A stretch of DNA of 64,000 nucleotides from Sclerotinia nivalis. Lineage: Eukaryota > Ascomycota > Leotiomycetes > Helotiales > Sclerotiniaceae. The position numbers were made by a program, and so were the translations under genes. The notes beneath the pieces are model-generated. The model made no database searches and was not told the origin of the DNA. It saw only the letters and a list, made by a program, of their open reading frames with translations. Numbering within the stretch: position 1 is the stretch's first letter; each line of letters begins with the position of its first letter. This document shows positions 17,990-50,512 of this stretch, one piece after another. The stretch covers positions 620,001 to 684,000 of the forward strand of contig JAPEIS010000007.1 in NCBI GenBank assembly GCA_029531795.1. The letters run 5' to 3'.

Positions 17990-19180
17990 TTGATTAATCT
18001 CGGTTATCATCCTTCTTGCTGGAAACAAACTATTAAAGCTATATTCAAAAAACCTTCGAAATCAGATTATTCTATTCCAAAAGTATATAAAGTTATCGCT
18101 TTTTTGAATTGTTTAAACAAGATAAGTGAAAGAATATTAGCTTAAAGGTTTAGCTATTTTGTTGAAACAACAAAACTACTTTATTATTCCCAAATGAATA
18201 GAAAACAAAAGAAATCAGCTATCGATATAATAATCCTACTTATTACCAAAATCGAAAGGAATTCAAGAAACAAAAAGAAAACCTCAACTTTTTTTCTAGA
18301 TATCAAAAGGACCTTCGATTATATATCCAAAAATCAACTCTTAGATATCTACAAGAATCTCAATCTTCCAATTAATCTTATTATATAGATCTCATTATTT
18401 TTGGAAAAAAGATTATTCAAACTTTCGTTCGATAGTTAAACCGAAGCTTTTAAACTAATCAATACCGGAATCCCTTAAGGAAATCCAATCTCATCAATCC
18501 TTTTCCTAATCTATATTCAAGATCTCTTTCAATCGAATTTGATTGAATATCTTTCGTATATTGATAATATAACCATAATCATTTATTCTTCAAACTAAAA
18601 AAAGAACATTTTTTCCCTCGAAAAAACAATTAAACAAATTTATATTCTCGATGAGAAAAACGCTATTCAATTCGATTTAGCAAAGACAGAATTAATACAT
18701 TTCTCCACATCCAAATACACTAAAGATACTTCAATCAAACTCCCAAATTCTAAGATTATACAACCTTCATCATTAATCAAATAATTAAAAATATAATTCG
18801 ATCCCGACCTCAACTTCAAACAACATATTACTATTCGAACAATTCAAGTTAAAGCTTCATTCTATCGAATAACCAAATTAACTAATACTAAAAAAGAACT
18901 AAACCCTAAAGCACTAAAACAACTCTATATAGCATATATCATTAGTATAATTAATTACAGATCAATCATCTAATGAAAAGATCAAGCTTCATTCAAAAAG
19001 ACTCTTCAATTACTCCAGAATCTTATTCTACATAAGATTCTAAAAGTCTTCAAAACCTCACCAATAAAGCTAATAGAAATAAAAACCGCTTTATACCCTT
19101 CAAAGATCAAATTAAACATTGAAATCAAACAATATACTTTCAGATTGTTGAAAATCTCGTCTTCCCATTCTATTAATACA
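17990..19180 (+). pseudogene. LINE 1 ORF2 reverse transcriptase remnant
   Basis: Readable blocks in order are NLGYHPSCWKQTIKAIFKKP, STFFLDIKRTFDYISKNQLL (A motif region), GIPQGNPISSILFLIYIQDLF (B motif region) and YIDNITII near 18,556, which corresponds to the Y-x-D-D catalytic box with the second Asp changed to Asn. A thumb-like region with INLNFKQH and ALKQLYIAYI-type blocks follows. The Asp-to-Asn change fits G-to-A decay. Confidence 0.7.
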
Positions 19181-19181
19181 A

Positions 19182-19394
19182 TATCACGGAGGCAGCAGAC
19201 AGGATAACAGAAATCACTTTTATTGATAAGACGTAGCTCGAAGAGCTACGTTTCTATAGAAGGAACGGTTCCTTAAACACATTTATGTGTAGCGCTAGCC
19301 CCGACCGGGGCTAGCCTACACTTATCCGAGGTCCGACTCCTACGGGTCGGAACCCGAGCGGTCTCCGTATACCATATACGGGGACCCCGTGACA
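19182..19394 (-). mobile_element. 213-bp multi-hairpin element, copy A
   Basis: This is one of three equal-length copies. It is flanked by the perfect 5-bp duplication TACAA (19,177-19,181 and 19,395-19,399). Termini are TATCACGG on the left and CCGTGACA on the right; read from the other strand it starts TGTCACGGGG. It is packed with consecutive hairpins: 19,231-19,251 (9-bp arms, GAA loop), 19,260-19,274 (7-bp arms), 19,277-19,290 (6-bp arms), 19,285-19,321 (9-bp GCTAGCCCC arms extended by GTGTAG/CTACAC), 19,332-19,351 and 19,361-19,384 (10-bp arms with one mismatch). GC content is far above the host LINE. There is no ORF. It sits in the LINE 1 ORF2. Strand is set by the TG end. Confidence 0.88.
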
Positions 19395-19596
19395 TACAAT
19401 TATAAATAAACTAATTACTAAAAGAAAAACTCTAAATACAATAACAATCCTTCAAAGGAAACTATCAAAACTTATTCAGTTTAAAAAAATCATAAAATCA
19501 ATCGAAGAAGATTTCGATCCTTTAATTCTAGAAAAGATCGATCATTTTCACTTCCCTCTTTAGAAAAGGAATACTTCATACAAAATCAATATCAAT

Positions 19597-19759
19597 TGTT
19601 ACGGGTTCATCTCCCTTCACCTGCACGTGATCATGCGTGCCTTAGGCATACATGCATACACTCACTTTTATATAGTCAGGTCACCTCCTTGATCTTCTTC
19701 TCCTCCTCGTAGTACAATAATAGATCAAATCTATATATACCTTTTCCCTTATTGTGATA
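19597..19759 (+). repeat. 163-bp LTR, left copy
   Basis: This begins TGTTACGGGTTCATC and ends GTGATA. It matches 31,642-31,804 over its full length, both being 163 bp, with differences that are mostly transitions. The left copy is less decayed than the right. Preceding sequence ATCAA resembles ATCAG after the right copy, a possible 5-bp target duplication with one transition. The pair bounds a 12.2-kb element inserted in LINE 1. Confidence 0.75.
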
Positions 19760-20792
19760 GTTTGTACTACCCTTTCAAAGGCTCCATCATTTTACGAAAT
19801 GATCTGGCCTTGCCAAATCATTTGCAGGCTTCTTGTTACGCCGCTACAATCCTTTATCATTAAGAAGTGATCAAGGGACTTATAGAAAGGCCGTGGTGGT
19901 TTCTACTAAAGATCAAACAGGGGCTTGGTGAGAATGAAAGATATAACGATTGTATTGTATAGTAACTATAGTGTTTAAACTAATGATTGTTCTTGAGCAC
20001 GAAGCTCTACAAATAAAGGAATCCATCCTGCTTATATAGATCTTCGTACTTGGGAGCTCTAGGAGCCCTCGAAACTCCAATGCTCCATGCTCCATCACAT
20101 GATCTGATACTAACATGGTCTGTACTCGTTTGTTCCTACGATCACCTTGGCCGGCGAAGACGGATCTCTCACCTGTACGCGGTGCTGGCTACGAACTGGT
20201 GATGCTTTTGGCATTCATCTGAGCTGACGAGAGAACGCGTGGCAGAGCTGGAAGGGCTGGATTGGGTTGAGAATTGGGGTTTTTCATAAGGGCGAAAATT
20301 TTTCATTTCACTTCACTAGCCAACAGCGATCAGAACAGAGGATCATATTGCGATAATGATAATTAGCAACAAAGCCATCATTCGTTTTAGCTAGGTGTAC
20401 GACTTGATGCTCTGTACGACTATCGACATGGACGATTGACTTCTCTGGAGTATTTTGTAGGATTTTCATGTCGGAAGAAAATAATAATCGGGAACTGATC
20501 TTCTTCGGCATCCTGAACGATTCGAACCTAAAGTTTATTACAATCTCGATTTGTGGTAGAGGTAGGTAGTAGGAAACTATGAAAGGGCAAAGAGAATAGG
20601 GGGACAACGATGCTCGAGTGAACCTTAATCTGCAAAGGCAGGCCCGAGGATATCCCCGGATTATAATTGGCTACGAGGTTTCGCATAAAAACGGATTGTT
20701 ATAAGGGATGAGAGGGAAAACGATTGGAATATTTGGTTATACTATAAAGGATGTGGATTAGGGAAGAGAGATTATATAGATTAGAGACGATC
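19760..20792. other. About 1-kb RIP-free patch inside the LTR element
   Basis: Between the left LTR and the first 258-bp repeat lies about 1 kb with ordinary base composition, unlike the AT-skewed DNA on both sides. Retroelement gag would be expected here, but no gag, zinc knuckle or other domain is readable. The longest frame (minus strand, 20,308-20,607) has no early ATG. A 7-bp hairpin (ATCATTT/AAATGAT) lies near 19,787-19,804. It may be captured host DNA or a low-copy non-coding internal region. Confidence 0.45.
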
Positions 20793-21050
20793 TACTATAT
20801 TAAAGAAAACAACTGATATATCCGTTCGAGGGATTAACTCAATACGCAACGGCAATCATATAAATCCTGTTGAAGCATATAATATATTCATTAAATTAGC
20901 ATTTTTCCCTGAAAAGGGTTTTTATATAGTTAGCTCAGAAACCCAGGGGCCTTCCTCCCCTAGCGTCCTTTGTCCCAATTGGGAATTTGAGGCCTGTGCT
21001 TCGCACAGAGCCTCGGACGAAAAATATCACACATACACTACGATCACCTT
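20793..21050 (+). repeat. Direct repeat of about 250 bp, left copy (flanks LINE 2)
   Basis: It matches 26,665-27,126 once the 213-bp hairpin insertion and its duplication are removed. It contains GGGATTAACTCAATAC, a CCCAGGGGCC...CCCC stem, the palindrome TCCCAATTGGGA and a GGCCTGTGC/GCACAGAGCC hairpin. It ends near ATATCACACA...CACTACGA. The left copy shows the empty hairpin-insertion site. Whether these are LTRs of another element or an internal regulatory or 5' UTR module is not settled. Confidence 0.65.
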
Positions 21051-22779
21051 TGAAGGGGAGATATTTTCGAAAAATTGAATTTTTCGAAAAACGCGTTTAT
21101 TATCGCGTTTTATTGATCAATCGATCGTTCTTATCATCTATAGGATTTAAAAACGAAACTTTTCAGCCCCGGCAGGCACTGTACAGACGTGTTTCCGCCA
21201 CCATACCTCCCGCCCCCTCGACCCTTTTCCTCTCCCAAGCCCTCATTAATACAGTTAATACTACTACTAATAGAGCAAATGAAGATCAACAGATTTTTAG
21301 CCCCATCGCTTCGCTATAGAACGACTATCTCAATACCGAAGCAATTCGGACTCTCCCTACCCGACTTCGAAAACCCTTGATTACGTTATGTACCGATATC
21401 TCTCTTACAGTAAACAAGTACTTCGATATATTTATCAATGGATTTCATTCTCCTCGATTTATCAAATCTTTTATTAAAACTTTTATCAATCTTTTTAATC
21501 TTGATACACAAATCTTTCAATCAGTATTTGCATTTGAAATTGTTAAACCTATAAGAGGCCTTTCTACAATTCAATATTTCAAGGATTCCATTTATGCTTA
21601 AAAGATTGCAACTCTTTTATTATCAATTATACAACCTACAAACCCAAAAACTGGGAACCGAATTGGATCTCAATCCAAAACTCAATTTCAAATCTTATAC
21701 AAAACTGATACTTGCCTTTTTGTTTGAATTGGATTCGATTATCCAGTTCGAAAAGTTGGTTTTTTTGTTGTATTTAGTGTATTGAAAGGACAATTAGGAA
21801 ACGATACTAAACTTCTGAAAAAAATCCAAACAATAAATACTGGGTTTGTATTATATACGAACTCTTTAGCGAATTTAATAGCTTTAGAAAACCTTTCAAA
21901 TATAATCGAAAAAGTATTCGAAACTTGTAAAATCGAACGATAATAATTATGGATTATATATCGATTGAATTATATTCTATGAACTATTACAACTCTGGAA
22001 GATTTACAACAATTGATCATCGTCCCAATCGAATCGGAAACTATATTCGACATTATCAACGATAATACAGGATAATAAGCGATCCAAGCAATTGAATTTA
22101 TATAAAGCAAAGAATCCGGATTGTATAATTCTATTTGATTCTTGAGTTTTTTAGTTTTGCAATATATAACCTTTTTTAAGAATCTTTGGATTTTAGGAAT
22201 TATAATTAATACTTTCCAAATTGTTTTCAAACCCAAGATAATCTAATGTATTCGATACTTTCAATGGTATAATACTCGAACTTGCTTTTATCCAGAAAGA
22301 TACTGAATCTATGGTACAATCGAATATACAGAAAAGAATCATTCAATCTGATACAATACAATCTATATTTGCCCAACGAGGTGCCTATATTGTAGAAGCC
22401 CTTATTCTGCAAACAATCTATATTGCCCCTTTTGTCTTACTAACAAAGGCTTCAAAAGCAAATCGGAAAAACAAACTATCCAGAAAACCTCAAAAGAAAC
22501 TAGGGCTAGAACTTATGCTAATACAAAATACTCTCAAACCCCAAAAGCCGATTCCCCTATAAAGGAATCTATTACTTCTTTAACTCCAATCCGAATTCCT
22601 TCGATACTATCTTCATTGATACCACCCCCTTTTAATCTTTCTAATCGTTTCATTATATTAAAAGCTTTTCCTTTTCCGATTCCTTTTAATATATAATTCT
22701 AAATTATCTTCTAAATCATTGATCATTTTATAAACTAATATAGCCAAAAACACTATTTTATATAAATTAGTACTTTCCT

Positions 22780-23390
22780 TAACCAATGATTCTTGTATTG
22801 ATATAATTCTGATTCAAAAATCTTATACATTCTCAGATATCTCACATTGAATCACTAAATCCCATTTTGTTTATAAAACTTTTATATTATTCGATAACTA
22901 GGAAATCCAGTTTTGTGTGATGTTTTATACCCGAAAAAATGTAGACATTCGAGCTAATCAGCTTTGGTCTGTATCCTTTCGGGATTTATTATTTTTACAA
23001 ATTCAATCTTTAACTGATTCTATTCTTACAATCATTAATATTTATAATACTTTTAAAAGTTGTACAAATGAAAACCAAACAATACAAATTCTTTTTGATT
23101 TACTTTCGAATATTTTAAATTCTACATTTCTTACAAGGGATCTAAATCTTTATCATTCGAAATGGAATCTCTTTTGTTTTTTATATTCAAATTCTGTAGA
23201 ATCTTTTACAATCTGGTTAGATATAAATTCTTTTAATTTTCTTTCTACAATCAATGAACCTATCTATAATTTGGGCAACATTCTCGATCTAGTTTTTCTT
23301 TCAGGATCATATATAACTAATACAATTTCTGCATCGCATTTGGATACAATTTTCGATCATCGATTCTTATTGACAACTTTGAATTAAAAT
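22780..23390 (+). pseudogene. LINE 2 endonuclease (EEP) remnant
   Basis: The open stretch 22,917-23,387 is free of stops. It contains a FRDLLFLQIQ...TIINIYN core, then TRDLNLYHSKWN, which corresponds to the GDFN-H-P box of retroelement endonucleases, GNILDLVF, and LDTIFDHRFLL, which corresponds to the terminal S-D-H box. These residues bind metal and phosphate in the family. Upstream residues are readable across stops. Confidence 0.65.
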
Positions 23391-24129
23391 ACAAAGTTTC
23401 AGAACCCGATCCAAAAACTCCGAATCAATACATTAGACAAAAAACTCTTTTCTATTTTATTAATAGAGAATCTATTGAATTTAAATCTACTAATTCTAAA
23501 CACAATTACAGATCTTGATAAATTAGTTTTAAATATCATTTAAACTCTACAATCAATATACATAGGATCAATTCAAAGATCACTCGGCCGAAATACAGAT
23601 CAACTATAATAGAACAAGATCTACCGAACAGCTGTTCAAGAAAACCAAACGAACAACTCTTCAGAATCAAAACAAAATCTTCGAAAGGTTGTCAAAAAAG
23701 CGAAAAAGGAATTCTGACTTTTTAAGCTTGATTTAATCAAGGAAATAAAAGATATCTTTAAAATGACAAAATAGTATCAATCAATTGGAATATATCGAAC
23801 TCCTCTTCTAATAGATCCTTTAGATCATTCTCTTACTACAATAATTCAAACTAAAAAAGATTTACTTATCAATAATCTATTAATCAATACAACTGAAATT
23901 AACGATATCTCATTTGATTCATCTTCAACTTCCATTCGTTCAATTGCCTTTCCTGTTATCACAATTCAGGATATTCAAACTGCTATCCTTCATACAGATA
24001 ATACAATTCCAAGAATAAACAAGATCCCTATCAAGATCCTACAATTAGCATAACCACTAATCGAACTATATATCTTACAACTCTTTCAAAAATATCTCGA
24101 AATAAATCACTATCCTAAATGCTTCCGAT

Positions 24130-24800
24130 CAACAATTGTAGTTATCGTTCCGAAACCGAACAAATCAGATCACACAAACCCTAAATCCTATAGACCAATA
24201 ATCCTATTCTCAGTATTAGAAAAAGATCTCGAATATTTGATTGCAAAAAAGATATCCTGGATTGCTATAACCCTCAAAATACTAACCAAACAACAATTCA
24301 GAACGCTTCCCCTACGTTCATTAGTCGATCTTACAACTTGCCTTATATATGATTTAGAAATAGCTTTGAATTCAGATTCTAAAACTACCTTATTAACTAT
24401 GAATATTAAAAATACTTTTGATACTATTCTTCCAGAACATTTGATTCGCCGATTCAAGGAACAAGAATGGCCTGATAACCTAATTCGATAAATACAATCG
24501 TTTTCTACAAATCGATCAATTCGTATTCGACTTGATAACAAAACAAAACCCAGTATTAGTATTGAATATAGTTTACTATAAGACTCCTCAATTTCATCTA
24601 TTCTTTTTATACTTTATATAGCTCCTTTGTTTTGATTAAACAATCCTATTTGAAGATTTGGATATACAAACGATATTGTATTAATAGCTTTTTCTTCAAA
24701 CTTACAATTTAATTATAATCAATTATAATCCGAAATACTAAAGACTTTGAATTGGGGCAAATCTGAAAAGATTACTTTCGATTCTATAAAGTCTGAATTG
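24130..24800 (+). pseudogene. LINE 2 reverse transcriptase remnant
   Basis: Readable blocks are IVVIVPKPNKSDH, NPKSYRPIILFSVLEKDLEYLI, TKQQFRTLPLRSLVDL, TTLLTMNIKNTFDTILPEHL (A motif) and RFGYTNDIVLIAF near 24,655, the equivalent of the catalytic Y-A-D-D box with Asn replacing the first Asp. The order matches non-LTR reverse transcriptases. Confidence 0.68.
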
Positions 24801-25599
24801 ATATATTTCTTCAAAGATTTCAGAAAAGATATCGAAAGCTTTATTATTTATACAGAAAATCTTTTAATAATAAAGAAACCAAATCCATTGAGATAATTAG
24901 GGGTTTATTTCGATAAAGAACTGAATTTCAAACCTTATATCCAGATCCTTTCAGTTAAAACTTTTACTATTACAAACGTATTGTATTCATTTGAAAAAAC
25001 AACTCGAGATATCCTATCAATTTTGCTTCAAAGAACAATTACAGTCTGTATCCTGAAGAAATATTACTTTGCAGCTGAAACCTAGTGGTCTAACCGAACT
25101 AGAAAACGAAATCTAAACTTCACAATCTCGAATCAAATGGATGGACATTTGAAGCTTTTGAATAAGATTGTACTAATTAATATTCGAGCAATCCTTTTTG
25201 TATTCTGTATAACTAATATTGTTGTTCTATATAAGGAATCAAATCTAATACCTTCTGAGATTGAGCTAAATTTGATATCCCAAAGTTTCGCTGTCCGAAC
25301 GGCTCGGTTAGATCCTAAACATCCCCTTCGAATTCGAATCAAAAATATCTTAGTTAAAGCTAGAGCTAGAACTACTGAATCAAGATTCTCAAGAATTATT
25401 CTAGTTCTTTCAAAAGCTGAATATATCAATCCAATTGCTTTTCTCTCTTAAAAAAACAAAGAACTACATATTATTATAGAAATCCGGATCGATAGTTTTC
25501 TCAATTGTTCGAAGGAACAAACAGTTAAGGATTTCGAAAGGTTTATATTTACGATTTACAAATCTTCTCCGATGATTCGAAAAGCGAAGCTCTGGATAA

Positions 25600-26080
25600 T
25601 ACTACAGAAAATGGATCAATGATTTATCAATACAATCTGCAAATGAATCAACAAACTTTCTTACTAGATTATAATACTGAAATCTTCAATACCAAAGCAA
25701 TTACAGTTTTGAAAGATACTCAAACAGTAATACAATTACTCTTAACTAGATTCGTTACAAACCTTTAGGTTTTCTTGGATAACCTAAAAATTACTATACA
25801 ATTAAACTTTCATTCCATTAGATCCTTTCAATCTATATTTGAAGAATTCTGCAAACTAGTTACAATTTGACCTCTCAGGCCCCATTTGCCATATATTCGC
25901 CCTAGCTCAATTCGAATTCAATGGATTCCTAAATACTTAGATATCCCCAGAAACAAAGCAACGAATAAAACAGCTAAAAATAAAACAATACTCCTATCTT
26001 TATCTAATCCTATCTGCACTTTTGCCTCCTTGAAAAGAATCGCTAAAACGAATACCAAATCAACAAAAACTAAATTATAA
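25600..26080 (+). pseudogene. LINE 2 RNase H remnant
   Basis: Near 25,905-25,970 the frame reads IRIQWIPKYLDIPRNKATNKTAK, the equivalent of the W-(I/V)-P-G-H-x-x-I-x-G-N-E-x-A-D block of retroelement RNase H, with key Gly and Asp residues changed. Upstream Ile/Leu-rich strands are readable across stops. Confidence 0.6.
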
Positions 26081-26664
26081 ATAATTACAACATTACAAAT
26101 CTATAATAATCTTTTTATAATTTATAATAACAAATCGATTATACTTTTTTTTGATCAAACAATACTAGAATATATTCTAACAACCAAATCTCAATACAGC
26201 GATTTCGCAATATATCATGACCGCTTCAATCACAAAGATGCTTATATATTATGTTTATATAGGAAAAGAAAATCCCCTCTTCATTTTTACTTTTATAAAA
26301 TTGGAAATACTCAAAAAATCCTTTCAAAGTTATTACCATTTGAAACCATCCCCTATCTTTTGGAAAACATAAAAGGAACAACGAAACTAACAATTTAACT
26401 CAAATCTACAAAGTTCTATCAGAATATATATCCTCAATTCCCTATACAATTTATTAATTGAAAGATTGTTTTGATTTTTATTTTTATTTTTATTTTTATT
26501 TTATATTATTTTTGGATTTTCTTTATATAAAACATTAGATTTTGATTCGGAAAGATTGAATTTGTATAAACTTTATAAAAAAAAAAAATCTTTATATTAA
26601 CAAAATCATATTAAAAAGCTCGATTACAATAACGAAGGAGAGGAAATCAAAAATCAAAGGATCT

Positions 26665-27126
26665 AACTGTATTATAAAGGACAGCTGAAATATCTACCCA
26701 AGGGATTAACTCAATACACAATGTCACGGGGTCCCCGTATATGGTATACGGAGACCGCTCGGGTTCCGACCCATAGGAGTCGGACCTCGGATAAGTGTAG
26801 GCTAGCCCCGGTCGGGGCTAGCGCTACACATAAATGTATTTAAGGAACCGTTCCTTCTATAGAAACGTAGCTCTTCGAGCTACGTCTTATTAATAAAAGT
26901 GATTCCTGTTGTCCTGTCTGTTGCTTCTGTGATACACAACAACAATCATGTAAACCCTACTAAAGCATTTAATATATATAATACTAGTAAATTTAGATTA
27001 GCTAATTAGAAACCCAGGGGCCTTCCTCCCCTGGCGTCCTTTGTCCCAATTGGGAATTTGAGGCCTGTACTTCGCACAGAGCCTCGGACGAAAAATATCA
27101 CACACACACACACACTACGACCACCT
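26665..27126 (+). repeat. Direct repeat, right copy, interrupted by hairpin element B
   Basis: About 244 bp homologous to 20,793-21,050, broken at 26,722 by the 213-bp hairpin element. The right end expands to a (CA)n run at about 27,100-27,115. It lies directly upstream of chromovirus coding sequence, so it may be part of that element's 5' region. Confidence 0.65.
26722..26934 (+). mobile_element. 213-bp multi-hairpin element, copy B
   Basis: It is in the opposite orientation to copies A and C. It begins TGTCACGGGGTCCCC and ends TCTGTGATA, with a perfect 5-bp duplication CACAA on both sides (26,717-26,721 and 26,935-26,939). The related sequence at 20,850 (AATACGCAACGGCAATCAT) is an uninterrupted version of the target, which fixes both ends independently. 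The internal hairpin series is the same as in copy A. Confidence 0.9.
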
Positions 27127-27752
27127 TAATCTCATACTAATCCGATCAAATCATAACGTGTATTCACACGATCGGTTACTATAAGATCCGTGATCGTAAC
27201 AAATAGATCATTGATACTATCAAACCTTTAAATAAATTCCTTATCGATCCTAATATAAAAACTAAATATACAATTTATAAATACCGCTCTCTATATATCA
27301 AGGATTATTCAAAGAACGATATCGATTATTCACCTATTCAAATACTTTCTACTTTTAAAAGAACTTCTTATAAAAAACCTTCTATTAAAGAAATACCAAA
27401 TAAAGATTATATATCACAATCTGATAATTCTTCTATTGACCTCGAATTTCAACAAGATCTAATATCTAATATAAATCATTATCGAATAAAGCACTACAAA
27501 GAACCAAATAATCAAATACAAATGATTCTCAATTATCTACATCCAAAATCGATCTTAAAGATTGTAGATCAGCATCAATCTATTCACAATCCAAAAAACC
27601 ATTTGCCTCCACTTTCTATTAAAGAACTCCTTATACCTATTTACAAAAATATAAGCCCAAATATAAATAATATTCGTTGATTACAAACTTTTAACTTTGT
27701 TTCGTTTTGTCAACAAGATAACATTCGGGCTATCCGATTAATATAAGATGAA

Positions 27753-28025
27753 TTGAATACTATACAGAAAATTATTGAACAAGATTATCTACAACAAACT
27801 ATATTGTCCTCGATACTCACAAAAAAAGATTTTCGATCGATTTTACAAAGGCAAAGCAATATAATAGAAATACTCTTTAAAACCCCACTGCAACTTTATG
27901 ATTTTATATACGATTGTTATAAGCCGCTCCATTTGCGAAAGGTCTCTAAAACTAATATCAACAAATTTTTAACTAACAAACCTCCCCTTAATGATAATCA
28001 AATACAACAAAAGCTTCCTATATAA
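27753..28025 (+). pseudogene. Chromovirus pol, region upstream of reverse transcriptase
   Basis: A 90-residue open remnant with EQDYLQQTILSSILTKKDFR and TPLQLYDFIYDCYKPLHLRK blocks. After the stop, the frame leads through NKLPPHRIWNHKIELIFDKE, a typical lead-in to Ty3/gypsy reverse transcriptase (LPPHR...D..IEL). A protease Asp triad is not identifiable. Confidence 0.55.
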
Positions 28026-28139
28026 TTACAAAACAAACTTCCTGCCTTCCTCCCACATTATACAAATAAATTACCGCCTCATCGAATCTGGAATCACAAA
28101 ATTGAATTGATATTCGATAAAGAACCACCTTATTTCAAA

Positions 28140-28650
28140 AATCATTTTTTATCATCAATAAAATTAATAATGATACACAAATGATTTGATAATAATCTCT
28201 CTAAAGAATTCATTCGGGAATCGAAATCACGATACACTTTTCCTTTATTATTGATTGCCAAACCGAAAAAAGGGATCTATATTTATCAAAATTATCAAAA
28301 ATTAAATAATATTACTATAAAGAATCATTATCCATTATTTATTATTTACAAAATATTAAACATTCTTTACAATACAAAAATTTATATTAAACTTGATATC
28401 ATTGCAATATTCAACAAATTGCAAATCGCCGAAAAAAATGAATGGAAAATTATATTCATTATTCGTTTTGGTCTTTTTGAATTTCTGATTATACTTTTCG
28501 ATTTTTATAATATATCTATATCGTTTCAATATTATATCAATTATATACTTTTCGATGAATTGAACAAATATTGTACTGTATATCTCGATGATATCCTAAT
28601 CTATTCCAATAATCCTGTAGAATATAAAGAATATATTTGTTAAGTAATTC
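28140..28650 (+). pseudogene. Chromovirus reverse transcriptase remnant
   Basis: The open part 28,251-28,643 contains IAKPKKGIYIYQNYQKLNNI, then TKIYIKLDIIAIFNKLQIAE (the A motif Asp is present), FGLFEFLIILFDFYN.S.SFQYYIN (B region) and YLDDILIYS near 28,580, the intact catalytic box. It is the best-preserved domain of this element. Stops lie on both sides. Confidence 0.8.
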
Positions 28651-29599
28651 AAAAGTTAATAGATATTGGATTATAGATTGATATTAACAAATACGAATTC
28701 GAAACTACAAAGACAAAGTATTTGAATCTTATCATTATAATCGAAGATATCGAAATGGATTAAGAAAAGATTATAATTATTATATCTTGGGAATTGCCTT
28801 TATATATAAAGGATTTACAACGATTTCTTGGTTTTGTTAATTTCTATTAACGTTTTATAAAAGATTTTTTAAAGATTTATTGCTCTTTCAATAATCTTTT
28901 ACAAAAGAATATTATATAGGATTGAATTATAGATTATATAAAGACTTTTAATATTTTAAAAAGAGCTTTCATAATAATACCGGTTTTGGTATATTTTGAT
29001 TACAAACAGAAAACTGTTTTGGAAATCAATACTTTCGATTGAACTTTAAAAGGAATTCTTTTGCAATACGATAATGATAACATTTTATATTCAATCGTTT
29101 ATTTTTCATCTAAATATATAACAATGGAATGTAATTATGAAATCTATAATAAAGAACTACTTATTATTATCAAAACAATAATAAAGAACTACTTATTATT
29201 ATCAAAACAATAAAAAAAAATATTCAAAACTCCAAAATTCATAAGAGAAATTCAAGATTCTTATTGATTACAAAAACCTCGAATATTTTATAACTACAAA
29301 AGCTCTCAATCAATAACAAATACGATAATCTGAATTTCTATCTCAATATAATTTCTGTATAGTTTATCGATTAAGAAACAAAGCTATTCGATTAGATACA
29401 CTAAATAGAAAACACGAAGATCAACTATATCACTTTAATCCAAACAATAAACATCTAAAGAATCGAAAACATATTATTCTCCCTCAAAATCATTTTGACG
29501 ATAACCTTTATAAGGATTTGATTGAGTATATCAATTTGACATCAATAAAAACAATAATATTATTCTACAACCAACCAATTGATATCTTAATCGATACAA

Positions 29600-30800
29600 T
29601 GTATACTAAATCCGATATTGCAAATCAATTTATCTTTATTTTTAACAATCCATCAATAATTAAATAACCAAAAAAGCATTGTAAAACCCTTTAGATCGCT
29701 ATACAAGATTATTCGATCCAAAATAATAGAATTTACTATCGGGATAAGATTTGGATTCTACTAAACGATAAACTCAAACTTCAAATTATCTATCGAACTC
29801 ATTCTTCTAATCCTGCCGGCTATCACAGAGGCAACAGACAGAACAACAGGAATCACTTTTATTAATAAGACGTAGCTCGAAAAGCTACATTTCTATAGAA
29901 GGAACGGTTCCTTAAATACATTTATGTATAGCGCTAGCCCCGACCGGGGCTAGCCTACACTTATCCGAGGTCCGACTCCTATGGGTCGGAACCCGAGCGG
30001 TCTCCGCATACCATATACGGGGACCCCGTGACACCGGCCATCCTAATCGAACTAAAACGATCGATCTTGTTTCTTATATATACTAATAATCTAATATACA
30101 TTTGAAAATCATATTCTACATAAAAACCTACGAACTTTGTATTCACACCAAATCGTCCAAATCGACGCCTCCCGGATTTTTGAAACCATTGCCTATCCCT
30201 TTTCACACATGATCTGATATTTCAATCGATTATATTACACCGCTCCCGAATTGCACTCGTTATAATTCTACTTATAAATATATCTTAATAGTAATCTGTA
30301 AACTAACCAAAATGAGATATTTTATCAATATACATACACTAACAATAGAAAAAGTAATCAATACTTTTATCAACCACATCTATATACTTTATAAACTTCC
30401 GGACAATATCATTTCCAATCGAAGAATACAATTCGTATCAGGATTTTGATTACAACTTTCGAAATAGTTGAAAGTTATCTTAAAACATTCTTCAACTTTT
30501 CATCCTCAAATAGATAATTAAACTAAATATATTAACTCGATTCTGGAACAGTATTTACAAACTTTTGTTAACTATTATCAAAACAATTGATTGGATTGAT
30601 TACCCTTAATCAAATTTGTATCCAATAATTTAATCTTTGAAATAACTAATTGTTCGCCTTTCTTCACCAATTACAACTTTAATCTATACCTAAACATTGA
30701 ACCTAATAAATTTTGTCCACCAAATATAACTCTAATATAAAAACAGGAATTCTTTAAAAGTAATAGAATTATAAATCGTATAAAACATATCTTAAAACAA
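29600..30800 (+). pseudogene. Chromovirus integrase remnant, split by hairpin element C
   Basis: The zinc-binding segment reads YRTHSSNPAG up to 29,820 and resumes as HPNRTKTIDLV at 30,039 after the 213-bp insertion and its duplication. The catalytic core follows with ISIDYITPLP (first Asp) and LPDNIISNRRIQFVSGF (second Asp). The Glu segment is degraded. This reading supports the element's orientation and dates the hairpin insertion after the chromovirus. Confidence 0.7.
29821..30033 (-). mobile_element. 213-bp multi-hairpin element, copy C
   Basis: It has a perfect 5-bp duplication CCGGC (29,816-29,820 and 30,034-30,038). Same orientation as copy A, and differs from it at about 12 positions, all transitions. 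It is inserted in the integrase zinc-binding region of the chromovirus. The hairpin series is conserved, although a few stem pairs (for example in the first hairpin) are weakened by the transitions. Confidence 0.9.
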
Positions 30801-37870: not shown

Positions 37871-39349
37871 CTACGAGTCCCAAATAGGACCAAAGGCCGG
37901 AATTCCAAGATATTCCAAATCCTGCACGAGTTTTATCGTCAATTTCGGATTCGAAATAACAATGACAGCTTCAGATTTAGTGTCCCGGTACTGTTGTATC
38001 ACAAGAGGAAGTGTCGCGGGTCTTCCCATGGTCGTTGTATTATGGATGTATGCGTTAGGCCCCAGTGCTTTGATAATGCCACCAATCTCATCACCATAAG
38101 TCGTCAACGGGTCTCGAGTTGACCAAAAGAGATTGATTCTGGTTTTTTGTGCAAGGATGACCGGTAAGCAGGGTGCGATTCCAGAACCGGTAGCTACGAG
38201 TAAGATACTTCGAAACATGGGAGCGATTCGTAAAACACCACATGTGGGCGTACGACGAGCCCAAACCTCCTTCGGTGGTTCGCTTATCAATTTTTTGGTC
38301 CAGTCACCTGCGTTCGAAATAATGAGGGAGAAGCCGTCTTTCTTTGGGTCTGCGACAGTGGCAAATGCATGCCATTCGAAGAGAGGGCTGCTGGATATGC
38401 GAATGGTTGTTCCTGGTGAAGGAGTAACGTAGTCGAAGTATATGCGCAAGGCATGTGTTGAAAGTTGTTCTGATTGAACTTTGACCTTTCGGCAATTAAG
38501 CCACGTCATAATGATGCTCCATGTAGCGATAGCGAGAAGCCAAATGTTAGGGTTGACTAGTAAAACTTTGGACAATTTTTGAGTTGACGATCGCTCGATA
38601 TCACTGTTGAGTACGGTGAGAGTCCAGAGCAGAGCGAGTGCTGACCACCCAGCAAATCGATGGATGATTTCAAAGCCATTGTGGAGTTTTGCACGAATTG
38701 ATGGATGAGCCATGACAATCATTGAGATGAGAAGAATATCCAAAATGTAGATGATGATGAGTAGGATGATCTTTTCCGCGTGGTACGGTCCCCTCCAACT
38801 AGTTTCGATAGAGAGAAGGATGAACCAAAATGTTGCAGCTGAGGCGCATCCGGAATGAAGACCTCCCAAGTGGTAGATCTTTCCCATGCGTCGGCGAAGC
38901 CACAATGGAAAGCTTTTTGGTGCGGATGCAAAAATGGTATACAAACCATTGATTACATGCTCTTCCCGAATGACAATAGAGATCACCAGATTAATTGAGG
39001 TTGCCAAAGCAGCTGTTGTTTTGCTTGGCGTCCCATTAGTAGCCCATTCGTACAGGAATCCCACGGCACCTCCCAAATTGAGGCAAAACACGATTGTGAA
39101 CAGAAGTCGATATTCGGAGGTGATGAAGCGATAAAATCGCAGAAGGGGCGTGGCAGATTGTCTTGCGACATCTTCCAGAAGCTTGGGATCCACAGATACT
39201 TTCATCAAACTTGAGCCTCCAGAACTATTTGATTCTGCCAAGCTGCTAGAGGATGGTGATGGTGGTACTTTGGTCGATTCGCCCATATCGCTGGAGTCCG
39301 CCAAGCTGCGAACATCTGGCGACTCGACTACCTTTTCTGGTTCTCCCAT
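37871..39349 (-). CDS. TmpA-like integral membrane oxidoreductase-like protein
   Basis: A single exon of 492 residues from the ATG at 39,349 (MGEPEK). The N-terminal 55 residues are Ser/Pro-rich and cytosolic. Six membrane segments follow: about 85-106, 112-128, 162-187, 195-218, 232-254 and 270-290, including YHLGGLHSG and FEIIHRFAGW, whose His residues fall where ferric-reductase-like proteins hold ligands. The C-terminal half resembles a ferredoxin-reductase fold with VATGSGIAPCLPVIL (nucleotide-binding Gly-x-Gly-x-x-P) and INLFWSTRDP. This architecture matches TmpA of Aspergillus nidulans and the C-terminal module of fungal adenylate-forming reductases such as Cps1/NPS10. TmpA is tied to conidiation signalling; that role here is inference. 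No adenylation domain is attached. A TATATAAA lies about 230 bp upstream (near 39,582). Confidence 0.82.
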   Translation of the reverse strand: MGEPEKVVESPDVRSLADSSDMGESTKVPPSPSSSSLAESNSSGGSSLMKVSVDPKLLEDVARQSATPLLRFYRFITSEYRLLFTIVFCLNLGGAVGFLYEWATNGTPSKTTAALATSINLVISIVIREEHVINGLYTIFASAPKSFPLWLRRRMGKIYHLGGLHSGCASAATFWFILLSIETSWRGPYHAEKIILLIIIYILDILLISMIVMAHPSIRAKLHNGFEIIHRFAGWSALALLWTLTVLNSDIERSSTQKLSKVLLVNPNIWLLAIATWSIIMTWLNCRKVKVQSEQLSTHALRIYFDYVTPSPGTTIRISSSPLFEWHAFATVADPKKDGFSLIISNAGDWTKKLISEPPKEVWARRTPTCGVLRIAPMFRSILLVATGSGIAPCLPVILAQKTRINLFWSTRDPLTTYGDEIGGIIKALGPNAYIHNTTTMGRPATLPLVIQQYRDTKSEAVIVISNPKLTIKLVQDLEYLGIPAFGPIWDS

Positions 39350-42106
39350 ATTGAAAACAAGTAAATGGAACAAGCAATAGTATGATAAAGAGGCGGGTTG
39401 TAGTTGGTCAGTCGCGGAGGAAGTCCCAGTAAGATATTGGCTAAGACCCTCGTGCTAGATTTTGGTTGTTGAGGTAGACGAGACACGAAGAGAATTTCTG
39501 ATCTGGAAAGATAGAAGCAAGTGCAAATTTTGACGGTTTTCGAGCAAGGCTTGATCTGAGAAATAGCTGGTGAGATGAGAGTATATATAAAGTTTTCATC
39601 TGTCTTGAACAGCTCATGACAAATTAGTGGATATTATTTCTATCCAAAAAAGGAGGACTCCGAACGCTCCATTAGGAAGTGCAGATGGATCAGGGCAAGA
39701 AGACCCACTAGGAGCGAGGCCCTATCCAGATGGATTGTACATACGGAGTCTCATTCGGATGAGGGGAAGTAATCGACATAATCCCAAAGGTTGATATCCC
39801 ATCTTCGCTCTCTCCGATGCTGTTATCATTCTTCACGATAGTGGTACGAGATTGATATCTTCTTCACGTACATTGAGGAGTATCCCCGTCCAGACTGGGA
39901 TAAAACGTGCTCGCAATGCTACCCTCCCTTTCGGTAGCTCCTTTACGCACTCACCACGTCATCTCAATCAATCATTCTTTGGCTATGATACCCAGTTTCA
40001 TATCACAGTGCTATTGCGGAAGTGGAACCTCTTTTGCGCGGTAGATAGTATCTCTCTATACATCTCCTTCTGCTTCTTTCAACGCCAGACTACAGGTCCG
40101 AAGTGTGGAAACAAGATAAACTCCTTGTAGACTCTTCCTTCCATAAACTAGGATATCAATGGAACCCACCAAAGCCTTGTTGTGGAGTCAAAAAATTACT
40201 AGTTGTAACCGGGCCGCACCTCTGCATATTTTCCTGGGCGTGCATGTGTGTAAGGCACAGGCAGCACTTGTCCTATCATACTCCACTACAAACTGCACCG
40301 TCATGTTGGAATAATGCTTGGGTATTTAGCTCGTGCATTCCTCTCAATCCTTTGAATTTCGCTTCCAAGTCCGCTCTTGCAATCTGATATGGTAGGTAAT
40401 ACGCTGTCATGAGAAGTAGGTGCACATACGTTCACCGCGAAATGATACACTTGAAGGGCACCTTCCGGCAGTGGTCAAAAAATTGCGAGGAAACGAAACC
40501 GTGTGAATAACAACATTATAATCTTCACAATCCCTGAATTTTACTCTTCAATCACATTTGCTCTTGGGTCGAAAACAAGCATCGTCGCACGCGTGGCATG
40601 GATTTACCCAACAAATTATTGTTCATGAAATGCTACTACCCCTCACATCAATTTATGTTTCAGTTATTGATCTCGATTCAACATCTTGAACTACAAAAAT
40701 TTTGATATGAAGTGGAGCATGTTCTTCTTTATGCATTCTTTGCAAACCGTTGTTAATAATTCATACCCAGTTAACTGGCGTGCTTACCTTCCAAGTTGAG
40801 GGGCCATCTTATCACGACGAAACTCGTGCGGCCGAAAAGTATGCAACTCCGGAGCTAGAAGCACGTTCCACGGGGTGGTAAACTACAAGAGGAATAATCC
40901 TGGTTTCTTTAGCGTCGGAGTTCATACTTTCTGGCACCACAAGTACAGTACTTCGAATTTTGGAGCTATAAACGGCCACATCCCTTGCATGTCCAGATCC
41001 ACCTACAACAACCCACCTTCCCCATTGTAACAAAAATTTGGTTGTCTAACCCTTCCTGTAGCTAAGCAAGGTTCACATGTTGCAAGTAGCGGGGGTATTC
41101 CTAGTTAAATCCTAGTCTCTAGGTCCCATGTAGCACCATGTGAAAATTGGAAAGGGATTTTCACGGGTAAGACTTAGCAGGTACAGGTTAATACCTCATC
41201 CTAAGGACGTGGGGGTTTTACACACTGTGAACATGTTGTATTTTGCAACTTCCGTTTATGACGACACTAAATTTCTCCACCTCATGAGCATTCAGATAAT
41301 GTACGTACATGCTAGCCCAAACGCAAGTGCACGAGTCGAGAGCAATTACCAATAACTATTTCTCTTTTGGTATATCAATATCGCAAAGTTCACAATAGTA
41401 TTGACGCCAGTGACATTGTAAGGACGTTGTCATTGTGTGTTCAATCAACTACATTGACCTATCAAATCCGAGGGCACGAGATTGGGACACACAAAAAATT
41501 GTAGCCATGATGGAGTGTGGTACATCGGTCTTCTGGATAATGGCTATAGGCATAGAATCATTATACCTGCAGTGTTAAGTGTTTGGCGCCGATCACATGC
41601 ATCCAAATTGCACCTTTGCTCGGCTGTTCGTCAGTATCTGGCAGTTCTTCCTGTGTAAATCTCAATTAAACTGTAGATGTCTAGCTGAGTAACCTAAAAT
41701 CGTAAGAGACCCAGAAGAAAAACTGGAGAAAACGGGCCTGGCTAGCATTAAATGTGTTAGTAGATTTGTGACAGAACTCCAATCTCCTCCACAGTTAGAC
41801 AATAGTGCATAATCAACCTTGAGCGCAAGTGTCATAGCACCCTTTTGGTGGACGGCTACTCGCGTAGCCAGAAGGTTTAACACCCCGAACGCTAAATCGG
41901 TGCTAAGAAAGAGGGGGAGACCTTGAAAGCGGGGTAGTTTGACCAATAAGAATAATCATTCCCGAGCGTTTAGAGTTTTGTACTTTGTGGCCGCACGTTT
42001 CTGGCCGCACGAGTACCTCTCCAGTTTGTAGATCACGGGGGTTGCATCTAAAAATGATCGACAGCGAGGTACTGACTGTAGATAGAAACTCAATTGCTCT
42101 ACCGTC
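39350..42106. other. Intergenic region with no supported gene
   Basis: It starts with the promoter of the TmpA-like gene. Short frames on both strands (for example minus-strand 40,812-41,033) carry no recognisable domain. Composition is ordinary and RIP is not evident. Confidence 0.4.
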
Positions 42107-45999: not shown

Positions 46000-46384
46000 T
46001 TTATAAAATCGATTTAGTGTAAATTAAATAATGTTTAAAAATTTCTGAATTGGATATGATATTTAAATTAAATATAGAAATTGAATTGAATATAAGAATT
46101 AAATCGATAGATAAATTCTTGTAAATGTTTAATAATTATTAATTTTAAGATTATTCAAATTATATTCTATTTAAAATACTTAGATAAACCCGGTCATTTT
46201 GTTTATAATCGTATAATAACATTTTTTTTTCTTTAAAAACTTTATTAAAATAATTAAAATTATAAAAATTCATTTTTTATAAAGATATCAATAATAATAA
46301 TTTTAAATTCATTTAAGAATATAATCTAATTATTTTATAGATTTTTTGTTAGATTTATTATAATCTATTTATTGAATAGTATTA
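46000..46384. other. Sharp boundary into extreme AT-rich DNA
   Basis: From about 46,000 base composition falls abruptly and stays very AT-rich to the window end. No coding sequence is readable in this first stretch. Confidence 0.6.
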
Positions 46385-46595
46385 TCACGGGTTCATAACT
46401 CATTCCTAACTAGTCTCTGAATGTCTTAGATATTCACTATTCTTATATAGTTGATATCTTTCTTAATATTTTCTTTTCTTTTTTGTAGAAAATTATTATA
46501 TTATTTAAAACCTCTATATATATTATAATATTTAAAACCTCTATATATATTATAATAATATATTTATTACTAGTTTAATTAGGAAGGCAATAATA
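46385..46595 (+). repeat. Decayed LTR fragment (TGTTACGGGTTCAT family)
   Basis: ATCACGGGTTCATAACTCATTCC and the following tract align with the LTR starts at 56,578 and 61,434. A 30-bp A/T unit near 46,495-46,555 is duplicated in tandem. It is cut off by the reverse LTR at 46,602. Confidence 0.5.
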
Positions 46596-46601
46596 ATAAT
46601 G

Positions 46602-46894
46602 TATTAAGATCATATAGATAAAGAATCAATTAGTCGTAAAACAGTAGTCAAACTTTTCATTACCCTTTCTAATCATGAAGAAATTATTACTTTTAAGTTC
46701 AATCAATAAAAAGATATCAGAATGCTTATAATTTATTATCATTCCTATTCTTTCATAATCAGTACAAAAAAGCCTGTTTATTAAACATTCCAAACTGATT
46801 GATGACGTTCCGACGTTCCTACGCTGGTGATTCGAAATAGGAACGCCTCCTTGTAGGTTTCCTATCGATACGAAACTGTTACGTAGTCGTAATA
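46602..46894 (-). repeat. LTR of the 285-bp family, reverse orientation
   Basis: The reverse complement of this stretch aligns end to end with 32,656-32,940, starting TATTACGAC and ending ATCTTAATA. Flanks TAATG and TAATA form a near-perfect 5-bp duplication. It retains moderate GC and faces the next LTR head to head across 88 bp. Confidence 0.65.
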
Positions 46895-46982
46895 TAATAT
46901 ATCGTAAAAATCTTTATAAAACTATTTCGATTCAATTTAATTTATAATTATTACGGTGTAATAGAGGATCTTAGTAATATAA

Positions 46983-47264
46983 TGTTACGACTATATAATA
47001 GTCTCGATCAGGAAATCTACAAGGGGGCGTTCTCATTTCGAACTACTGGTGTAGGAATGTTATCAATTAATTTGGAATACTTAGTAAATAAGCTTCTTTG
47101 TTTTGATTATAAAAAGATAAAAATAGTAATGAATTATAAGTATTCTGATATTTCTTTATTGATTGAATTTAAAAATAATAATTTCTTTATGAATTAGAAA
47201 AAGTAATGAAAAGTTTGATTATTATTTTACAATTAATTGATTTTTTATTTATATAATTTTAATA
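46983..47264 (+). repeat. LTR of the 285-bp family, forward orientation
   Basis: It begins TGTTACGAC and ends TTTTAATA, and aligns with the solo LTR at 32,656. It is more AT-rich than that copy. It is followed by decayed Ty3/gypsy coding sequence, so it may be the 5' LTR of the element below. Confidence 0.65.
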
Positions 47265-50060
47265 ATTCTTTTTATTATTTTTTAAAAGTAATTTATTAAT
47301 TAGTTATTATTAATATTTTAGCGGTATCTTATCGAATAACAATGATAGAAATAAGAAATATTCCAGATTGTTCGATTAATTTAAATACTTTTCAAAGTCA
47401 AAGAAACAATATTTTTAGAATTTTAAATAGGATTAAAAACGAAACATTTATATTTAATTATTAATCTATTATACAATTAGAATTAAATCTGATACAAAGA
47501 TTTGAAAATATATAAAAAAAGTTCGATATCTTTAAATAAATAAATCAATAGAAAATCAAAAAAACTTTTGTTTATTTTATATAGAAAAGAATATCTAATT
47601 TGTTATCAATAATTATTAATGAAATAAAAACAATATTTAATTTTATTTATACTTCTCAAAGAAAACTTCTAAAATTTCAAAAACTATTATTTTACAAAGG
47701 TTTTAATATTGGAAAAGTAAAGGATTTCTTTTTTCAAATTGAATTTATATTTCAGAATAATAATAAGTATTATTTCCTAATCAATCGAAAGAAGATAGAT
47801 TATGTTATTCAATATTTTCAATAACAATTGTTTGTGATTTGATATCGATTCGAAAGCTTTATATCGAATTCTAATATATTATAAAAAGAATTCAAAGAAT
47901 ATATATACGATATAATATTGAATAAAAATAATCGATAATGATATATTATATAGCAAATTATTAATATTAAATAATAATTTAATCAAAATATAAACAATTT
48001 TGTAGTATATTTCGATAATTTGAAAAAGGAAATAGAATTTAAAATGGAAAGTATTTATAAAGAACGATTTTTAGTAGATTTACTTTTTTATATTACTAAA
48101 TGAATTTCAAAATCTATTTAAAAATTTGAAATTAGAAACGAATCAATTAAACAAATATATAATCTAGAAAATATAAACAAAATATATTTATTATTCACAA
48201 AATACAAATAATCTATTTTGTAATCGAAAACAAGATAATCTATTTATATTATCAAATCCATCTTTTAATTATTTTCAAAATAAACAACCCAAATAATAAG
48301 ATAATATATTATTAGTAATCAATATACAATTGCAATCTAAATATTTCAAATTCTTTTCAAAAAAGAAAATCAATAAAGAAAACTAGAAAAATGATTATAA
48401 ATAAAAGAATCTAATTTGCTTTTATTATCAATAAAAAGATTATTATACAAACGGATATACTAATCTATTTATATATCGATAATTTAAAAGCGATTATTAA
48501 TCTTGTATCTGCTTTATATATTCTCAAAAGAAAAAGAATCAAAGAAACAATCAAATTCAATAATAATTTTAATTATCTCGATAACTCTAAATCCTTAATA
48601 AAAGGGATATACTATCTTAATTATTGAAACAACTTTTCGAATTAATAATATTCCAATAAAACAAATATATTAAATAAGATTGAATTCCTAATTCCAAAAA
48701 AAACATTTTATTAGTATTAATCAATAAAATCAATATACTTTTATATAATAATCATTGATTTATTATCGAAATATTAAATAATCTCAAAGAAAAAAGAATT
48801 CATATTTATTGGTTTATTGTTATTACTTTAGATTTACCAAAAATCGATATTATTTTAGATCTATCTTAACTTCAAATTATGAATCCAGATATTAATTAAA
48901 GATCAATTACTCTTTACTTTCGTTCTATATTATATAATATAAAAATGATAATAGCAAAAGAATTATATCGGAATATAAATATTAGAATTAGAATTTATAT
49001 ATTTCTATCTGAAATCAATCTTATTATATAATTTTCATTCAATACTTAAAACATTCTAATATTAATACTTTTAAAAATATTTTCCAAGTATAAACAATAT
49101 GAATAGATTTTCTTTAAGAATAAGAGCAACTTACTTTCTAATTATTATTCGATAAAATATTATATTGATTTCGAATCTGAAACTATTTTTTCTTGAAATC
49201 CAATATATACTTTTTCAGAAAAAGAATTAACTATTCTATAATAATATTTTATAAAATATCAAAAGAAAAATTGGATTCACTATTCGATTAGTTTCACTAA
49301 TGTTTCAATTATATTTGTATTAAAAAAAAACAATAATTATCGATTATATATTGATTATTATAACTTTAATAGGATTATAAAAAAAGATTATATACTTTTA
49401 TCTTTAATTAACAAATCTCTAAATCGTTTAAAATAAAGAATCTTTTTTATAAAGCTCGATTTGAAAAATACTTACTATCGAATATATATATAAAAAAACA
49501 ATAAATAAAAGATAGCTTTCTATATTTAATATAATTAATTTGAATATTCAATTATACTTTTTGATTTGATCAATGCTTTTGTTACTTTTCAAATATATAT
49601 TAATCAAATATTCATTGATTTTATAAATAATATTTGTATTATATATTTGGATAATATTCTTATTTATTCTAAAAATAAAGAAATATATATTATTGATATT
49701 TATAAGATTTTTATTAAATTAATTGAATATAAACTTTATATAAAATTAAAGAAATATATATTTCATATATACAAAATAGAATTTCTAGATTTTATTATAT
49801 TAAACTAAAATATTATTATAAAATCAAATAGAATTTAGATAATTATAAAATAATTAAAATCAATATCATTCTATAATATCTAGATCTTTCTGAATTTTGC
49901 AAATTTCTATTATCTATTTATTATTGGATATTCGCGAATGATTTATAGTTTAATTAATTTACTACAAAATATTAAAAAAGTAAAAGTTATATTAGAATTC
50001 AAATAAATTAAAAAGATTTAAAAAGCTTTTAATAATCTGAAAAAGACTTTTATTATTATA
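47265..50060 (+). mobile_element. Decayed Ty3/gypsy-type element
   Basis: Only one block is clearly readable: 49,566-49,808 gives NAFVTFQIYINQIFIDFINN, ICIIYLDNILIYSKN (the Y-L-D-D box with the second Asp changed to Asn) and LYIKLKKYIFHIYKIEFLDFII. This is the reverse transcriptase palm and thumb of Ty3/gypsy elements. Gag and protease regions to the left are too decayed to assign. The element breaks off near 50,060, where a short GC-richer stretch (about 50,070-50,220) follows. Confidence 0.65.
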
Positions 50061-50276
50061 TCAATACACCCGCAAAATATTTTCTCTATTTTTCGATGTT
50101 ATCGATGCCGAAAATGCTTTGGCGGTTTTGTAATACTCGTCTAATTATAGTATCAATCGATGTATCTACAAAATTTTTGTTGGTATTGATTTGATGGCTT
50201 TAGTAGCTTTGATAATTTTGGTAGTTTTTGATAGTATTGATATTAAACAATGATTATTAGTATTTAACAATATATA

Positions 50277-50512
50277 GTGATAATTTTAATAGAGATAATA
50301 AAGATAATAAAAATAGTAAAGATAATAAAAATGATAAGGATAATAAGGATAATAAAAATGATAAAGATAGTAAAGATAATAAAGATAATAAAAATAGTAA
50401 CGATAGTAAGAATAATAAAGATAATAAGAATAATAGAATTGATAGGGATAATAATACAGATAATAGAAATGATAAAAATGATAAAGATAATAAAGATAAT
50501 ACAGATTATTTA
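50277..50512 (+). repeat. Degenerate 9-bp purine-rich array (GATAATAAG/GATAATAAA)
   Basis: About 25 degenerate 9-bp units on the plus strand, made of purines and T with almost no C. The open frames it creates on both strands (Ile/Lys or Tyr/Leu runs) are by-products and not genes. Confidence 0.8.

Follow-up and report, generated by a model that had tools for sequence, protein, structure and literature searches.

A 213-bp unit occurs three times in a 64,000-nt stretch of the genome of the plant-pathogenic fungus Sclerotinia nivalis (assembly GCA_029531795.1, contig JAPEIS010000007.1, positions 620,001 to 684,000; subsequently designated the window), and each copy is a solitary long terminal repeat (LTR) left by a Ty3/gypsy chromovirus. 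Copy 1 (19182–19394) and copy 3 (29821–30033) are on the minus strand relative to the sense of the LTR, i.e. inverted in the window, while copy 2 (26722–26934) is on the plus strand. All three are bordered by perfect 5-bp target-site duplications, which read TACAA for copy 1 (19177–19181 and 19395–19399), CACAA for copy 2 (26717–26721 and 26935–26939) and CCGGC for copy 3 (29816–29820 and 30034–30038). Copy 1 has haplotype A, with 34 letter-identical counterparts among the 121 LTRs introduced below; copy 2 has a B-type haplotype and copy 3 a B-type haplotype with further changes, which leaves it 94.4% identical to copy 1. In LTR sense the unit reads TGTCACGG...CCGTGATA, and these 8-bp ends are inverted repeats of each other with one G-T pair. 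The termini are TG...TA, where LTRs would have TG...CA. The guanine plus cytosine (GC) content of the LTR is 51%, as compared to a mean of 29% in the 500-bp flanks of 42 solo LTRs. No stop-to-stop frame of at least 120 amino acids overlaps any of the three copies, a scan of the window with Rfam yielded no match at the gathering score, and no tRNA gene was found in the window by a search run with bacterial settings. A preliminary description, made from the letters alone, had reported three exact copies with perfect duplications, which stand out as GC-rich islands from AT-rich host DNA and are free of open reading frames; all of this was confirmed.

The nature of the unit became apparent from the remainder of the genome, which comprises 50.3 Mb in 31 contigs. 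Copy 1 gave at least 41 matches, with the top score shared by 35 (best 40 of 665 candidates scored), including two same-strand pairs spaced 5,425 bp apart. These pairs bound two elements of 5,638 bp, L031 and L032, in which identical 213-bp units in direct orientation enclose 5,212 bp. In L031, the polypurine tract AAGGAGGGGGGTAC immediately precedes the start of the 3' LTR, TGTCACGG. Because the same unit is present twice in direct orientation around a coding region, with a polypurine tract in front of the downstream copy, it is the LTR of a 5,638-bp Ty3/gypsy chromovirus and not an independent element. The preliminary description had taken it for a transposable element; it is indeed the product of a mobile element with genuine target-site duplications, but it does not stand alone. 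An independent element with terminal inverted repeats, resembling a miniature inverted-repeat transposable element (MITE), was likewise rejected, as full elements begin and end with this unit.

The open frames of L031 and L032 matched the Pfam models RVT_1 (reverse transcriptase), RNase H, H2C2 integrase zinc-binding, SH3_Tf2-1 and Chromo above the curated cut-offs. The zf-CCHC model passed its cut-off in L031 and narrowly missed it in L032, whereas matches to rve (integrase core; below in L032) and to gag and capsid models stayed below theirs. Domain order, i.e. reverse transcriptase, RNase H and integrase followed by a C-terminal chromodomain, is that of Ty3/gypsy chromoviruses. A protein annotated in S. 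nivalis shares 85% identity across 65% of the reverse transcriptase frame, and the matches of this frame include proteins with source names such as ‘Transposon Tf2’ (among 120 listed of 4,581). Together with the SH3_Tf2-1 match, these names suggest that the element is Tf1/sushi-like. Of 20 full elements tried, 18 had readable LTR pairs, and 17 of these are flanked by a 5-bp duplication. We regard the element as a new family of a known group, ordinary in kind and unusual in the architecture of its LTR.

Solo LTRs of this family are frequent. The first 51 nt of the LTR recur with up to 3 mismatches at 292 places in the genome; the reversed pattern recurs at none. Thirty of these loci, fetched in contig order from the head of the list, comprised 18 solo LTRs with perfect duplication, 11 LTRs adjoining internal sequence and one partial LTR, L055, which abuts another LTR. 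Among the 11, L046 and L047 are the two ends of one element. A larger set, which is biased by the searches that built it, holds 121 distinct LTRs after removal of 5 at locus edges. These were classed by script into 68 solo LTRs, a class that requires a perfect 5-bp duplication by definition, 43 LTRs adjoining internal sequence and 10 unclear cases; one of the 43, L042, is solo by its duplication. The 68 solo LTRs are 94.4–100% identical to haplotype A (median 98.6) and 27 copies of this class are letter-identical, while identity ranges from 83 to 100% (median 89.7) for 38 5' LTRs of full elements.

The LTR contains a chain of hairpins, whose positions are given for copy 1 in LTR numbering and, on the minus strand, in window coordinates. 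H1 (14–30; 19365–19381) has 7 bp around the loop TGG and 4 more bp outside, H2 (44–63; 19332–19351) follows, and H3 (74–108; 19287–19321) has 15 bp with one bulge and an inner perfect palindrome at LTR 80–101. H4 (105–118; 19277–19290) competes with the base of H3 and is doubtful. H5 (121–135; 19260–19274) and H6 (144–164; 19231–19251) complete the chain, the right arm of H6 (LTR 156–164) being a putative self-primer. Downstream, LTR 171–176 (19219–19224) reads AATAAA, which resembles a polyadenylation signal; the motif is read from the sequence and its meaning taken from PMC3601003. Counting perfect hairpins only (stem of at least 6 bp, loop of at most 8 nt), copy 1 has six with 45 bp of stem in total, a value not reached by any of 300 dinucleotide shuffles, which average 2.1 bp and attain 18 bp at most. 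The six-hairpin chain of the preliminary description is therefore real. Its statement that nearly every base belongs to a palindrome was too strong, since perfect hairpins span 109 of the 213 bases. Folding, which it had also recommended, revealed copy 1 to be more stable than its shuffles on both strands, with z-scores of -6.9 for the sense RNA, -8.7 for the antisense RNA and -6.9 for DNA. When 300 tiles of 213 nt from the window were ranked by hairpin stem, the tile at 19171 came first and the tile at 29821 second. Internal sequence of the element is poor in such structures, with at most 14 bp of perfect stem in 47 windows versus 45 bp in the LTR. Direct repeats of at least 80 nt in the 11–33 kb part of the window comprised just one 102-nt pair besides LTR copies 1 and 3, so that this part provides no other LTR family as a hairpin control. 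Window tiles 28756, 48139 and 57937 are also hairpin-rich (33–38 bp of perfect stem), perhaps owing to AT palindromes or simple repeats.

Whether the hairpins are kept was assessed in 21 diverged LTRs and, separately, in 21 distinct solo haplotypes. In the diverged LTRs, loops have changed by transversion, i.e. at site 21 in the loop of H1 (16 of 21) and at site 89 in the loop of H3 (11 of 21). In the inner stem of H1, 120 of 147 cells are unchanged and 10 broken, and for the inner stem of H3 the corresponding numbers are 168 of 189 and 12. In copies of a subfamily designated D, the letters of H2 are changed and its pairing is re-formed. The H2 pair C49-G58 is T-A in 11 of the 21 diverged LTRs; this is weak evidence for compensation because the change on both sides has the direction of repeat-induced point mutation (RIP). 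In the solo LTR L133, T77-A105 became C-G, which runs against the RIP direction and keeps the pairing. Another solo LTR, L049, has the H6 loop TTC replaced by GAA, an exact inversion of the loop. Eight LTRs (A, B and six diverged ones) fold in sense orientation with z-scores from -1.9 to -6.8, while 24 internal windows average 0.15 (lowest -2.3) and 40 host windows 0.03 (one at -5.1). The preliminary description had named as its own refutation that the unit be simply the LTR of a known autonomous element, without hairpins conserved more than expected by chance. The unit is indeed an LTR, and its element is of the autonomous type; however, diverged copies mostly outfold their shuffles and the second form of the LTR presented next is hairpin-rich too, even though one subfamily has lost H5 and the status of H4 is doubtful. 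Taken together, changed loops, one inverted loop and some compensatory changes are hints that the pairing has been retained, with H4 and H5 arguing against it.

In two of the 20 full elements, the LTRs carry another unique 3' region (U3). This second-version LTR measures 237 bp and is abundant, as 25 of 41 listed matches are at least 99% identical over 150 nt (best 40 of 203 candidates scored). From 20 of its loci 21 copies were parsed, 16 of which have perfect duplications. Twenty further 5' LTR loci, anchored mainly on the junction with the priming site, comprised 11 full-length LTRs of the second version, 8 of the first and one, L187, of neither. A third U3 version in L187 was considered and rejected: its 5' LTR is cut off near LTR position 147, with the priming site intact. 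At L221, two second-version LTRs stand in close tandem, the first of them partial. Common to both versions are 12 nt at the start and 75 nt at the end. This 3' part occurs as haplotype A and as haplotype B in either version, each identical over the 75 nt, which indicates that U3 and 3' parts have been exchanged. Between versions, the U3 parts align with a score of 14 as compared to 8–12 in 10 letter shuffles, mainly through GCTAG/CTAGC at H3. In the second version's equivalent of H3, this motif is kept and the interior differs with pairing intact. Taken by itself, the second U3 contains 19 bp of stem in 2 perfect hairpins, a value reached by 0 of 300 shuffles, and its fold z-score is -3.4. Its fold support is weaker than that of the first version, with z-scores of -4.5 versus -7.6 for the full LTRs and -2.3 for second-version U3 positions 1–167. 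A U3 made of a hairpin chain that exists in two barely alignable versions is unusual within the literature searched. A Ty3/gypsy LTR whose U3 is a chain of hairpins was not found described in this literature, which includes the accessible parts of PMC3248453, PMC2864245 and PMC8959702 and lies mostly outside subscription journals.

H6 is of particular interest in view of the sequence that follows the 5' LTR. TGG is absent from the first 8 nt after the 5' LTR, and there is hence no usual priming site for a tRNA 3' end. Instead, bases 3–11 after the 5' LTR are the exact 9-nt complement of LTR 156–164, the right arm of H6. A match as good was obtained with 25 of 5,000 mononucleotide-shuffled LTRs and in 3 of 1,038 other internal windows. 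An RNA starting at LTR 156 is predicted to fold into the 9-bp primer duplex plus a further stem in U5. Self-priming by such complementarity has been described for Tj1 and Tf1 (PMC4600332) and predicted for Tf1/sushi elements (PMC6317226). By its anatomy H6 looks functional as a self-primer, its use and a transcript start near LTR 156 being our interpretation, and the boundary between U3 and R would accordingly be placed near LTR 156.

Full elements and solo LTRs differ in their mutations. Two full elements differ at 336 sites, all of them transitions, without any change in length and with none at LTR positions. Compared to haplotype A, 37 5' LTRs of full elements show 818 transitions and 4 transversions. 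The 68 solo LTRs show 251 transitions and 5 transversions, mostly changes common to whole haplotypes. Judging from the transitions, a RIP-like process has probably acted on the full elements, with far fewer changes in solo LTRs. A length threshold of 400 bp has been given for RIP (PMC5004834), which would spare solo LTRs of 213 bp. The genome has 8 matches to C5 DNA methylase. Such matches were recorded at G000 C9:188297-189822, one with 8 internal stops, which may reflect an intron or a broken gene.

The distribution of these mutations along the LTR was analyzed in 18 LTR pairs (L147–L186) chosen by internal sequence, after omission of the two second-version elements. In the 5' LTR, the mutated share of C/G sites is 0–3% in bins 1–100 and 17–20% in bins 101–213, while in the 3' LTR it is 19–20% at positions 1–40 and 1–2% at 181–213. 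The nearly mutation-free margin thus measures about 100 bp in the 5' LTR versus about 30 bp in the 3' LTR. As the 3' LTR is mutated at 1–40 and spared at 181–213, the spared zone is the outer edge of the repeat and not the hairpin region, and this spared zone is longer at the 5' end of the element than at its 3' end. An intrinsic protection of the hairpin region had been suggested by 33 5' LTRs, a set biased by an exact 51-nt start pattern and by searches with a copy having that start, and was not supported by the 18 pairs. A different observation is that window positions 46001–64000 form an 18-kb block of 14–27% GC per kb, set off by a sharp step from 44%, which is perhaps a heavily RIP-decayed block.

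Our interpretation, to which we assign a probability of roughly 85%, is that the three units were left behind as solo LTRs by a Tf1/sushi-like Ty3/gypsy chromovirus with a self-primer in H6 and a structured U3, and that solo LTRs are spared by RIP-like mutation. A full element would have integrated and generated the 5-bp duplications, and recombination between its two LTRs would then have removed the internal 5.2 kb. Full-length copies would be mutated by the RIP-like process, while a single 213-bp LTR would be too short as a target, so that solo LTRs would remain GC-rich within decayed AT-rich DNA. LTR 1 to about 155 would represent U3, with R starting near 156. H6 would straddle this start, such that its right arm forms the first 9 nt of the genomic RNA, pairs with bases 3–11 after the 5' LTR and may prime reverse transcription. 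H1 to H5 would constitute a structured U3 cassette, positioned 3'-terminally in the genomic RNA and upstream of the start in the DNA form. It is most likely kept either for pairing, e.g. in packaging, protection of the 3' end or strand transfer, or because its palindromes serve as a series of regulatory sites.

Several observations weigh against parts of this interpretation. Ten of the 121 LTRs lack both a perfect duplication and recognised internal sequence. Solo LTRs, too, differ from one another mostly by transitions, in the ratio of 251 to 5 given above. RIP in Neurospora strongly prefers CpA, and the C contexts between two elements are only mildly enriched in CpA. Outside the RIP direction, covariation amounts to one pair in one copy, L133. 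In the diverged LTRs, H5 is broken in 20 of 126 cells and not kept in subfamily D, H6 is broken in 34 of 189 cells with its first pair struck by a transversion in 12 of 21 LTRs, and H2a breaks as well. Transversions are only moderately rarer in stems, with 70 at 126 stem positions versus 77 at the 87 others. Among the 21 solo haplotypes, two-sided changes are confined to 3 cells of H4, which is itself doubtful as a conserved stem because it competes with H3 and is broken in 16 of 105 cells of these haplotypes.

The U3 palindromes might be sites for dimeric transcription factors, in which case the DNA sequence and not the pairing would be selected, and we consider this possible, though clearly not the favored explanation. 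Factors of the Zn2Cys6 type prefer CCG/CGG triplets, and arms with CCG/CGG are present in H1, H3 and second-version hairpins; the location of the hairpins ahead of the inferred start and the folding of both strands far better than shuffles also fit. However, the palindromes of the second U3 version are mostly different, and the T77-A105 to C-G change altered the sequence and left the pairing intact. More tentatively, U3 may be a swappable RNA-structure cassette, with two barely alignable modules, each a string of GC-rich hairpins, recombined onto the same R-U5; hairpin architecture at the 3' end of the genomic RNA, instead of sequence, would then be selected as a signal for packaging, protection or strand transfer, an idea we hold to be doubtful. 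It is somewhat less likely still that the palindromes are mutational products, with template switching across hairpins perfecting arms and flipping loops in the absence of selection: the inverted H6 loop of L049 would be such a product, but this mechanism leaves unexplained why palindromes abound in the LTR and not in the 47 internal windows. Finally, the unit might be a non-autonomous, MITE-like or LTR-only element moved by the chromovirus integrase, most solo copies never having had an internal region. An integrase could in principle accept a 213-bp DNA that carries the two LTR ends, solo LTRs outnumber the ends of full elements (18 to 11 of 30 loci), and 27 solo copies are letter-identical. 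We nevertheless consider this very improbable: the unit coincides precisely with the LTR of full elements, where it is bordered by the purine tract and the priming site; full copies are lost from the near-identical class through RIP-like decay, which could account for the ratio; and hundreds of solo LTRs in the sister species S. sclerotiorum are put down to recombination (PMC5004834).

The solo LTR interpretation places the element next to Tf1, Tf2 and Tj1 of Schizosaccharomyces, which likewise combine a chromodomain with a Tf2-1-like SH3 domain in a Ty3/gypsy element. As described for Tj1 and Tf1 (PMC4600332), the bases that follow the 5' LTR here can pair with a part of the LTR that might form the start of the mRNA. 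Differences from Tf1/sushi elements are the short LTR and the hairpin-chain U3 in two versions, features which may not be exclusive to this family. Gypsy-LTR_SS and Copia-LTR_SS of S. sclerotiorum have 359 and 141 solo LTRs, respectively, and RIP-like changes as seen here, and Gypsy-LTR_SS also has 5-bp target repeats; their LTRs, compared by description, measure 435 and 269 bp as opposed to 213 bp, and the accessible part of this account mentions neither a hairpin chain nor self-priming (PMC5004834). In the fungal GalEa Copia elements, a Conserved Hairpin Site at the border of the 5' LTR replaces the tRNA-type primer site, similar to the situation here; however, GalEa belongs to the Copia superfamily and has a single hairpin downstream of the LTR, and its authors report no U5 inverted repeat complementary to this hairpin (PMC5445492). 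Sire LTRs have U3 inverted repeats thought to form an RNA stem-loop, but these pair outside the LTR and expose the polypurine tract, whereas the hairpins described here are local and several in a row (PMC3601003). Ty3 genomic RNA, finally, is a Ty3/gypsy-type RNA that has palindromes near one end, and one of these drives dimerization in vitro; they are short and located in the 5' untranslated region and gag, while the present chain is in U3 (PMC11381356).

If the hairpin U3 is indeed selected for structure, it would offer a compact natural system to separate the shares of promoter and RNA structure in an LTR, with the many copies in two U3 versions as ready-made variants. The 18 LTR pairs show where RIP-like mutation ends along a repeat margin. 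This is relevant to the recognition of repeat borders by RIP and to the question of why solo LTRs outlast their parent elements.

Additional features were noted in the window. A second direct repeat of 102 nt at 97% identity is present at 20937–21038 and 27008–27109, the latter copy about 70 bp past LTR copy 2. Decayed fragments of the long interspersed nuclear element type occupy 22902–24491 in AT-rich DNA, with an endonuclease match just below and a reverse transcriptase match above the cut-off. A reverse transcriptase fragment at 28185–28643, just below the cut-off for RVT_1, apparently derives from another retroelement. The protein encoded at 37871–39454 is 97% identical to a protein of S. 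trifoliorum.

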